A DNA stretch of 37,745 nt from assembly GCA_904391375.1 (NCBI GenBank), contig CAJFMF010000003.1:1-37745 (forward strand). Direction: 5' to 3'. This DNA comes from Candidatus Gallimonas faecavium. GTDB lineage: Bacteria; Bacillota; Clostridia; Christensenellales; Borkfalkiaceae. This document shows positions 24,727-29,331 of the stretch, one piece after another. Below the pieces are notes generated by a model. The model did no database searches, was not told the DNA's origin, and worked only from the letters and a program-made list of their open reading frames with translations. Each line of letters opens with the position of its first letter. Position 1 is the first letter of the stretch. Made by a program: the position numbers and the translations under genes.

Positions 24727-25046
24727 CCCTCTTACCCAACAAGACGGATCCCCGACACCGCATCGCTGCGCCGCGTGCGGCAATTTCGGACGGGTGCGGC
24801 GGATTTTCGGCAGGGAAAAGCGGCAGGGGTTAGCGGGGATAAAACGGTGCGCTTTCGGCAGGGAAAAAGCGGTGGATTTTCGGCAGGGAAAAAGCGGTGG
24901 ATTTTCGGCAGAAAAAAGCGTCGGGGTTGGGCCGAAGAGAATGGCGGAGTTTCGGAAGAGGAGAGGTGCGCGGGGGCTGTCGGGACGCGCGGGAGAGGGG
25001 TTTCGGAAAAAATCGGGGGGATTTGTGCAAAGCGGCGCAATTTCCT
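24727..25046. other. Non-coding spacer of over 300 bases before rpsO
   Basis: Together with the terminator and the rpsO promoter this makes a 535-base gap without a supported gene (24625-25159). The middle holds the purine-rich tandem repeats described separately (24799-24920), and degenerate copies seem to trail on to about 25015. Open frames crossing it carry low-complexity Gly/Arg/Lys translations caused by the repeats and lack ribosome sites. Confidence 0.7.
24799..24920. repeat. Purine-rich 24-25-bp tandem repeat array
   Basis: Four clear units (24799-24822, 24847-24871, 24872-24896, 24897-24920) share the core TTTCGGCAGGGAAAAAGCG; a diverged unit fills 24823-24846. The two middle copies at 24847 and 24872 differ at only a few bases. 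Strand composition is strongly purine-skewed. No protein-coding or CRISPR logic is seen. Confidence 0.9.
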
Positions 25047-27786: not shown

Positions 27787-27815
27787 TTGACAAATTTTAT
27801 GAAAAGTATTATACT
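27787..27815 (+). promoter_or_regulatory. Promoter of the beta-helix surface protein gene
   Basis: TTGACA (27787-27792) and TATACT (27810-27815) are 17 bases apart in an AT-rich stretch, 31 bases before the start codon. Confidence 0.88.
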
Positions 27816-27846
27816 TTGCTGCAAGATAAAAATAAGGAGAGAGCAG

Positions 27847-29281
27847 ATGAAACAGAGTACGACAAGACGTAATTCCCTCTTGCTTTCGGCGCTGGCGGTC
27901 GTGGTGAGCGCAGCACTGCTGGGGGGGGGTACCTATGCGCTGTTTTCGCAGCAAGCAGCAAGAAAGTTACAGCATTGAAGTAAGTACGGGCGACATCAAG
28001 GTCACCGGCGATCTTGCGATTACGAGTGCGTGGTCGCAGGGAGAGAATGCGTCGGAGCGCGAGAACGGTACGGCGCAAGCAGACGGATCGTATGTCGTTG
28101 CGCAGGGCGGTGTGTTCAGCACGGACGGAGCCAAGATCGTGATGAACAACATGTCGCAGGGGGACGGAGCCTCGTATACTCTGTCGCTTGCGAACGAAAG
28201 CACGGTGAATATGCAGTACCGTGTCTATTTACAATCGAAAGAGGACAACGCTCTGACAAAGGCGCTGAAAGTGACGGTTGACGGAACGGAATGCGCGGCC
28301 GGAGCGGGAACGACGTCGCTGGTCGGCTGGACGCAGGTTGAAGCGGGCGCGGCGCTTGGCGACGGAGCGATGGACATTGAAATCGTCTTGCCCTGGGGCA
28401 GCAATGACGCTGCAGGGCAGACGGCGAATCTGTATGTGGTCGTGGAAGCGGTTCAGGCCAATGCCGCTACATATGATTTCGTGACGACGGATAAAACGTC
28501 GGAGATCGCGACGACCGAAAGCGGGGCTGAGGTGTCGTTCGGCTATGGCGCGGCTACGGCGGAGCCTGTCGTTGTGGACGGGCACGGATCTGCAAGCGTC
28601 ACGACCTGGCAGGATCTCTGGGTTCAGGATGATCTTACCATCCGCGGCGTAAATTTCTTGCAGGGGATTACCGTTTCGGTGAATGAAGTCGCGGAGCCGA
28701 TCACGATCACGATCGAAGATTGCACCGTGTACGCCTGCAATCAGGAACTTCTCAGAACGGGATACCAGAGAATCGATAATTCGGGAGACGGACTTTGCCT
28801 GGATATCGAAACAATGGGACAGCCGGTTACGGTTATCGTGAAAAACTGCAAGTTTGTCGGCGAAAACGACAAGACGCTTGATCGCAACGGGTATTCCAAT
28901 CTGGACGATTTGCTTGGTCTGAATAATCGCGGAAGATGGAAGTCCCGCGGCTACGGTTTGTCGCTCGGAGCGGTTTCCGGCAATACAAACGGACTTATCT
29001 CGGCGCAGATCAGCGGATGCACGTTTACGGGAATCCGCGGGAATGCTCTGCAGTTGTATTCCATCGCTTGCCCCGTGACGGTGGAAAACTGCACCTTTGA
29101 AAGCTGGGGCTGCAACCGGCAGACGACCGCAAAAGAAAAATCCGATGCGGCGATCCGCGGCGACATGAAAGAGGGCAGCACGCTCACCTTGTCCGGGAAT
29201 GCCTATCTGTTGGCAGAAGATGCGGGCGAGAACGGAATCAAACAGGTGAATGTGGACAACTATACCGGTCCGGTTGCCTGA
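27847..29281 (+). CDS. SipW-type-signal beta-helix surface protein, frameshifted by a 7-bp duplication
   Basis: Two overlapping frames form one gene. ATG 27847 (AAGGAG upstream) encodes a basic N terminus and signal MKQSTTRRN...LLGGGTYALFS, the SipW-dependent type known from TasA/camelysin-like proteins. Translation then hits a stop at 27976-27978. The rest is in the next frame (from 27935): a TasA/camelysin-like beta domain (ESYSIEVSTGDIKVTGDLAI...), then from about 28600 a parallel beta-helix with repeated rungs (ITIEDCTVYA, VIVKNCKFVG, AQISGCTFTG, VTVENCTFES). Removing one of two tandem GCAGCAA heptamers at the junction gives a continuous 475-residue protein reading ...TYALFSQQESYSIEV. So the gene looks switched off here by a reversible duplication, or is a pseudogene or a sequencing error. 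No SipW peptidase gene is in the window. Codon use is less GC-rich than in neighbours, hinting at different ancestry. Confidence 0.8.
27921..27929 (+). repeat. Run of nine G in the signal-peptide codons
   Basis: Nine G in a row encode the Leu-Gly-Gly-Gly part of the signal peptide. Homopolymers like this slip during replication. Nine G keeps the GGGTYALFS motif in frame with ATG 27847; eight would instead join the start directly to the downstream frame with a changed signal end. Confidence 0.9.
27948..27961 (+). repeat. Tandem heptamer GCAGCAA x2 at the frameshift junction
   Basis: GCAGCAA occurs at 27948-27954 and again at 27955-27961. With one copy (or four) the signal peptide and the beta-helix body are in the same frame; with two or three they are not. 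The repeat sits precisely where the frames must join. Confidence 0.93.
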
Positions 29282-29296
29282 ACGGTGTATGAACGG

Positions 29297-29331
29297 CGCG
29301 CCCCTGCATGGAAGTGCAGGGGCGCGTTTTT
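29297..29331 (+). terminator. Intrinsic terminator after the beta-helix gene
   Basis: CGCGCCCCTGCA pairs perfectly with TGCAGGGGCGCG around TGGAAG, followed by TTTTT, 15 bases after the stop. The stem resembles that of the terminator at 32752-32805. Confidence 0.93.

Follow-up and report, generated by a model that had tools for sequence, protein, structure and literature searches.

Does a gene that is broken exactly behind its signal peptide carry a reversible switch, and if so, which element of its sequence would operate it? This question is raised by a gene in the window, the whole stretch of 37,745 nucleotides analysed here; this stretch corresponds to contig C3 of a 1.64 Mb draft genome (120 contigs, 87.7% complete). 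The neighbours of the gene are pnp on one side and citrate synthase (gltA) on the other, names that were assigned from a reading of the frames. Gallimonas is placed in Clostridia incertae sedis in the NCBI taxonomy. Among the 80 loci kept, the closest named species by citrate synthase was Candidatus Gallimonas gallistercoris (74% identical), and other Clostridia assemblies were up to 92% identical. The features of the locus are collected in Table 1.

Table 1. Features of the locus in window coordinates
Feature	Position	Strand	Basis or remark
Sigma-70-type promoter-like site, TTGACA-17-TATACT	27787..27815	+	11/12 matches to consensus, without poly-G; consensus match only (1 found against 1.1 in shuffles)
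Shine-Dalgarno sequence AAGGAG	27834..27839	+	Sequence
Start frame: SipW-type signal peptide, 43 aa, TGA end	27847..27978	+	TIGR04088, 21.4 bits (cut-off 19)
G9 run within the signal-peptide codons for Gly-Gly-Gly; candidate contingency tract	27921..27929	+	
GCAGCAA in tandem (2.1 copies) where the start and body frames meet	27948..27962	+	
Body frame: N-terminal domain also present in other SipW-type proteins (~27965-28500), then region with weak beta-helix similarity	27935..29281	+	
Intrinsic-terminator-like hairpin 3' of the gene	29295..29328	+	

The sequence-only reading had given 27847 and 29281 as the two ends of the gene, and both are correct; the start is an ATG that follows AAGGAG. 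It had further described a SipW-type signal peptide, a start frame that is out of register with the body frame, and a tandem duplication of GCAGCAA at their junction; all three descriptions were confirmed. The surface or envelope class of the gene is predicted from the SipW-type signal, which scores above the TIGR04088 cut-off. The residues of the start frame end in ...LLGGGTYALFSQQAARKLQH, followed by the stop codon at 27976-27978. The body frame is open from its ATG over 448 amino acids without a second lesion. Its beta-helix similarity reached 16.3 bits, below the Pfam cut-off of 25.9. A search of solved structures with the body frame alone returned two aldolases (E ≥ 0.7), which were judged meaningless. 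Since the start frame still encodes the conserved TYALFS motif on the 3' side of the G9 run, the break in the assembled copy is located at the heptamer and not at the tract.

The frequency of tandem heptamers in the window was compared with a first-order Markov model. Two exact two-copy heptamers were seen where 3.3 were expected, and one of length 15 or more where 1.0 was expected. An array of 2.1 copies is not longer than chance in this window, and with counts at chance level the repeat itself is not unusual. Its unusual aspect is its place, exactly between two conserved pieces. This place marks the site of the frame break, but any small tandem duplication would mark its break in the same way. 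Most simply, the heptamer would be a duplication of 7 bp that puts the gene, as assembled, in the OFF state.

For the N domain of the body frame, relatives were found at identities of 23-44%. Eight of the 103 genomes of the genus, the source genome included, match at E 1e-8 or better, and the genus matches other than the gene itself cover the N domain only, at no more than 44% identity. No orthologue of the window gene was found among the 103 genus genomes and no relative in the GTDB r220 scan. At two related loci where the pnp end is present (L121 and L123), the sequence between pnp and gltA is a different one; at a third (L122), the sequence before gltA differs and the stretch examined contained no pnp match. 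The gene is accessory, as judged from the lack of an orthologue in the 103 genomes and its absence from the pnp-gltA interval of L121 and L123. In the relatives' loci 22 SipW-type signal peptides were identified, none of which has a stop within 14 residues behind the motif; intact relatives therefore exist, and the window copy is interrupted. None of these 22 signals has a G or C run longer than four. A profile built from 12 N domains matched one PDB sequence, 5of1 (spore coat-associated protein N, which we take to be TasA), at E 0.52, and one of the 12 members, not that of the window, matched Peptidase_M73. These two matches are a lead, not proof, towards a TasA/camelysin-like N domain.

Upstream of the heptamer by 18 bases, and 74 bases behind the start codon, lies a run of nine G (G9); no other G run of at least seven occurs in the window. 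The sequence-only reading does not mention this run. A tract of at least eight in a promoter or 5' coding region is one mark of a poly-G phase-variable gene, and the G9 run has both this length and this position. As a candidate contingency element it is likelier than the heptamer. The source genome contains four G9 runs. Three of them lie in the frames of surface-type genes (a class that was read from the sequences): the gene studied here, a paralogue of SipW type on C5 and, on C13, a gene for a membrane-anchored protein. The remaining one is located in the promoter spacer of a lipoprotein gene on C4 (TTGACA-TACAAGGGGGGGGGTA-TATAAT). The run could be a mere codon choice for three glycines: GGG makes up 20% of the Gly codons, which gives GGG-GGG-GGN in about 4% of Gly triplets. 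Across 22 frames examined in the window there are five other Gly triplets, all of which begin with GGC-GGC.

These observations bear on whether the gene simply suffered a plain frameshift, in which a one-off 7-bp tandem duplication made a young pseudogene and the G9 run is coincidental. The chance-level frequency of tandem repeats of heptamer size in the window fits such an event, as does the accessory nature of the gene. Against it, the 448-codon body frame has gathered no second lesion, the promoter-like site, ribosome-binding site and terminator-like hairpin are all in place, and all four G9 runs of the genome lie in or before genes read as envelope genes. We regard this explanation as unlikely.

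The arrangement in front of the lipoprotein gene was searched for across the genus. The pattern TTGACA-N-G8-N-TATAMT, which covers tracts of at least eight, was applied to 103 genomes with the same pattern read backwards as control. Matches were obtained in 67 of the 103 genomes, 192 in sum (at least one site, in G101, was counted twice), and the backwards control gave 0 in all 103. With C in place of G, 10 genomes had 12 matches, again with 0 backwards. These poly-C spacers form a smaller promoter set (L094-L103). In the order, 65 of 396 sampled genomes and 27 of 142 genera had the pattern, with 0 backwards; the 396 include 14 genomes of the window's own genus. The phylum control gave 5 of 398 genomes, the source genome included. 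A sample in the reverse direction began from 33 loci with G9 or longer (the four of the source genome plus, among the matches listed, the first locus of each of 29 other genomes), which yielded 34 tract rows. With one mismatch per box allowed, 15 of the 34 tracts lay in a promoter spacer in G sense and one in C sense, compared with none in the reversed control. Two of the tracts (L042, L062) are at contig ends and may be artefacts.

Spacer and tract lengths were determined for 126 distinct strings among the matches listed. Although the pattern permitted spacers of 9 to 27 bases, the observed lengths were 13 (3 strings), 14 (3), 15 (26), 16 (24), 17 (13), 18 (20), 19 (30), 20 (6) and 21 (1). 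Spacers of 15-19 thus accounted for 113 of these 126 strings versus about 54 expected from the pattern geometry alone, and given the range allowed, this confinement is a result. Tract lengths in the same 126 strings were G8 (27), G9 (74), G10 (23) and G11 (2). For comparison, ordinary promoters were taken that have these boxes but lack a G or C run of seven. In the genus loci, 14 of 22 had a spacer of 17 and 5 of 22 one of 19, and in other Clostridia loci 19 of 27 were at 17. The difference between poly-G and ordinary promoters at 17 gave a Fisher p of ~1e-13, and the dip at 17 inside the 15-19 range a one-sided binomial p of 0.012; related promoters are not independent, so that both values serve as guides. 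Lengths within reach of the optimum, and mostly off it, are the pattern that a spacer-length switch predicts.

Further support for variable tracts is provided by related promoters in different genomes. In two of three aligned promoter pairs the tract length differs. Between G001 and G075 it is G8 versus G9, the tract being the sole gap in the aligned stretch. Between G061 and G080 it is G9 versus G10, with flanks that differ too. In G000 and G004 the tracts are equal, as they are in G015 and G070, a pair that was shown unaligned. Promoter copies within one genome were also considered as length variants. In four of five two-copy sets (G417 and others) the flanks differ widely, and in the fifth (G341) the tracts are equal; for these reasons none was used as variant evidence. 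In such copies inside one genome, the promoter is common and the flanks mostly are not, as if modules had been duplicated or swapped.

Of 38 genes found behind poly-G promoters, 27 have a strongly hydrophobic N terminus, many with a lipobox, compared with a baseline of 64 of 419. This contrast is rough, as the baseline was drawn for the most part from the conserved gene neighbourhood of citrate synthase in other Clostridia, an imperfectly matched set whose composition favours a low figure. The 38 genes include four from other genera of the family (L105-L108) and some mutual orthologues; two further promoters had no gene. Poly-G promoters also stand before ABC transporter ATPases, by reading, rather than lipoproteins (L067, L068, L072, L083, L107).

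A second position of poly-G tracts, the one seen in the window gene, was searched for with the pattern GGAG-ATG-66 to 96 bases-G8. It gave 61 matches versus 37 backwards, a modest excess in which many rows were unlike genes. From the 61, 15 with a signal-peptide-like start frame were picked by eye: 13 from other loci, the G076 gene and the window gene. The 15 genes compared comprise 12 of those 13 (G033 gave no row), the G076 gene, the window gene and a gene of G022, whose tract sits further in; 14 of the 15 thus stem from the by-eye pick. In nine of the 15 the sequence continues in register and in six it is out of register, a ratio of limited weight given the selection by eye. In all six out-of-register genes, translation in the other frame would meet no stop for at least 398 codons, counted from the tract. 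Five of the nine in-register and four of the six out-of-register genes run off the stretch examined. The closest parallel to the window gene is found in G076, where the signal peptide ends directly in a G10 tract and the body is out of register. Relatives of the split G022 gene occur in three other genomes among the 103. At the loci examined, that of G076 has the signal-peptide tract, that of G061 has none, and that of G080 has a G10 run further upstream, outside a TTGACA/TATAMT spacer.

Taken together, these data suggest that the window gene belongs to a repertoire of envelope genes that is phase-varied throughout the genus by slippage of poly-G tracts, with the heptamer as a separate duplication; we give this reading a probability of about 0.58. 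Points against it are the location of the break at the heptamer, the possible codon choice behind the G9 run, the lack of longer G or C runs in the 22 relatives' signals, the modest excess and by-eye pick of the signal-peptide tracts, the equal tracts of G000 and G004, and a baseline that leans low. We further consider it probable that a multi-gene poly-G phasome extends, among uncultured gut Clostridia, across the whole genus and parts of the order. The genes behind its promoters would encode lipoproteins, further envelope proteins and in some cases ABC transporters, with spacers that are within two slips of 17 and mostly off it, which would leave most cells OFF and few ON, and genes with signal-peptide tracts such as the window gene would form a second arm. 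The locus itself would be a single-gene accessory unit that encodes an exported surface protein, predicted to consist of a SipW-type signal peptide, possibly a TasA/camelysin-like N domain and a beta-helix-like rest. The tracts would slip during replication. In a spacer, slippage would shift the -35 box relative to the -10 box, and the tract length would tune or stop transcription. In codons at the end of a signal peptide, the length would set the reading frame, and the G9 of the window gene would represent this second arrangement. Each cell lineage could in this manner display its own mix of envelope proteins. The heptamer duplication would be an additional event that need not be reversible at a useful rate. 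The two frames, the repeat, the tract and the statistics across the genus are direct observations; slippage in living cells, its effect on expression and the role of the window gene's own tract are what we infer from sequence.

The poly-G runs of the genus might instead be a fixed promoter element, e.g. a regulator site or a G-quadruplex, and not a slippage switch. This alternative concerns the genus-wide claim and is compatible with a plain frameshift at the window gene. A fixed element would account for the preference for G over C in the spacer (67 versus 10 of the 103 genomes), for the tract abutting the -10 box in 28 of the 126 strings among the matches listed, and for several multi-copy sets with a single length, such as the 18 nearly identical promoters of G002, all G8 with a spacer of 15. 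It does not sit well with tracts that range from 8, the search minimum, to 11 and spacers from 13 to 21 among the matches listed, or with near-identical promoters that differ in the tract. In addition, genes with signal peptides carry tracts in their coding frames, some in register and some not. On balance, a fixed element seems improbable, and slippage remains the preferred explanation for the tracts.

An assembly artefact or a mixture of strains was also considered, in which the genotype that prevails in the source population would lack the duplication. The draft assembly is fragmented, and another SipW-type gene in it, the paralogue on C5, has 31 N exactly behind the signal peptide, so that such regions may assemble badly here. 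In contrast, the frames of the flanking pnp and citrate synthase genes are intact, and a 7-bp duplication is not typical of short-read error. An origin of the duplication in assembly or strain mixture is quite unlikely. The 31 N (C5:35117-35147, or L022:9118-9148) stand exactly where the paralogue's signal peptide meets its N domain, a place homologous to that of the break in the window gene.

The sequence-only reading had proposed that gain or loss of GCAGCAA turns the protein on and off. A heptamer has a length that is no multiple of three and this one lies exactly between the two frames, but with only 2.1 copies at chance level, a single tandem heptamer in the 22 signals from relatives (different in sequence and in an unbroken frame) and no orthologue with other copy numbers in the 103 genus genomes or GTDB r220, such a switch is very unlikely. 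That single case is TTGCGCT in a signal of L006; another L006 signal has a five-base tandem, AGCAA, around its FSQQ, also in an unbroken frame. None of the 22 SipW-type signal peptides in the relatives' loci shows heptamer switching. Known heptanucleotide and short-tandem-repeat contingency loci share with GCAGCAA a unit not divisible by three and a position at a frame junction. Their arrays are longer, and two copies are few for a slippage array. The heptamer was therefore rejected as the main switch element in view of the chance-level count and the relatives' unbroken frames. The wider proposal, a reversible ON/OFF of an exported surface protein, is still plausible, and the lineage seems equipped for it, with the evidence favouring the poly-G tracts as its basis.

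The nearest parallels known are the poly-G switches of Bifidobacterium, Campylobacter and Neisseria. Bifidobacterium belongs to a phylum unrelated to that of the window. In a study on the sortase-dependent pili of Bifidobacterium breve and its relatives, an intragenic G-tract acts as a switch whose slippage was measured, and the authors mention G-tracts in promoter spacers of UCC2003 (PMC9187656). The likeness to the window gene lies in a gut commensal with poly-G in a surface gene and two frames that are joined or kept apart by tract length; the genes are different, and slippage was measured there, whereas here it is deduced from sequence. The spacer arrangement described here is spread over 67 of 103 genus genomes and 27 of 142 sampled genera of the order, in comparison with the B. 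breve system. Poly-G phase variation is described for Campylobacter and Neisseria (PMC8355987, PMC3786947, PMC5320596). The common feature is a hypermutable homopolymer in a promoter or coding region; those organisms are pathogens with known switching, whereas the bacteria studied here are uncultured Clostridia known from sequence alone. In porA and opc the tracts lie in the spacer. In their survey, Orsi et al. proposed homopolymers near the 5' end of genes as switches, and found poly-G and poly-C to be generally underrepresented in 99 genomes, with no 5'-end bias (PMC2831843). The tracts described here resemble those candidate switches in kind and place; the survey's figures for poly-G and poly-C mark the difference.

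In the open-access PubMed Central literature, no report of poly-G or spacer phase variation in this lineage was found among the matches listed. For reversible short duplications, one pneumococcal paper came up, which does not enter into the argument. A 2025 review names the restriction of multi-locus phase variation to pathogens as an unanswered question (PMC11868660). A poly-G repertoire in uncultured gut bacteria, if true, would be part of the answer. The poly-G promoters also offer many natural promoters with spacers that differ by single bases. In addition, they carry a warning: tract length may cause genes in these assemblies to be annotated as broken at the signal peptide.

At several contig ends, a poly-G promoter lies no more than tens of bases away (G417:C25:26-55, the end of G134:C2, the start of G134:C4, G341:C51:32-61, G088:C95:49-78 and the end of G071:C11). 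The window itself also contains tandem repeats of longer units. At 1776-1934, a 28-base unit is present in 5.7 copies upstream of a minus-strand ilvD-like gene, and at 24853-24920 a 25-base unit is present in 2.8 copies (95% match) before an rpsO-like gene; both gene names were assigned by reading.
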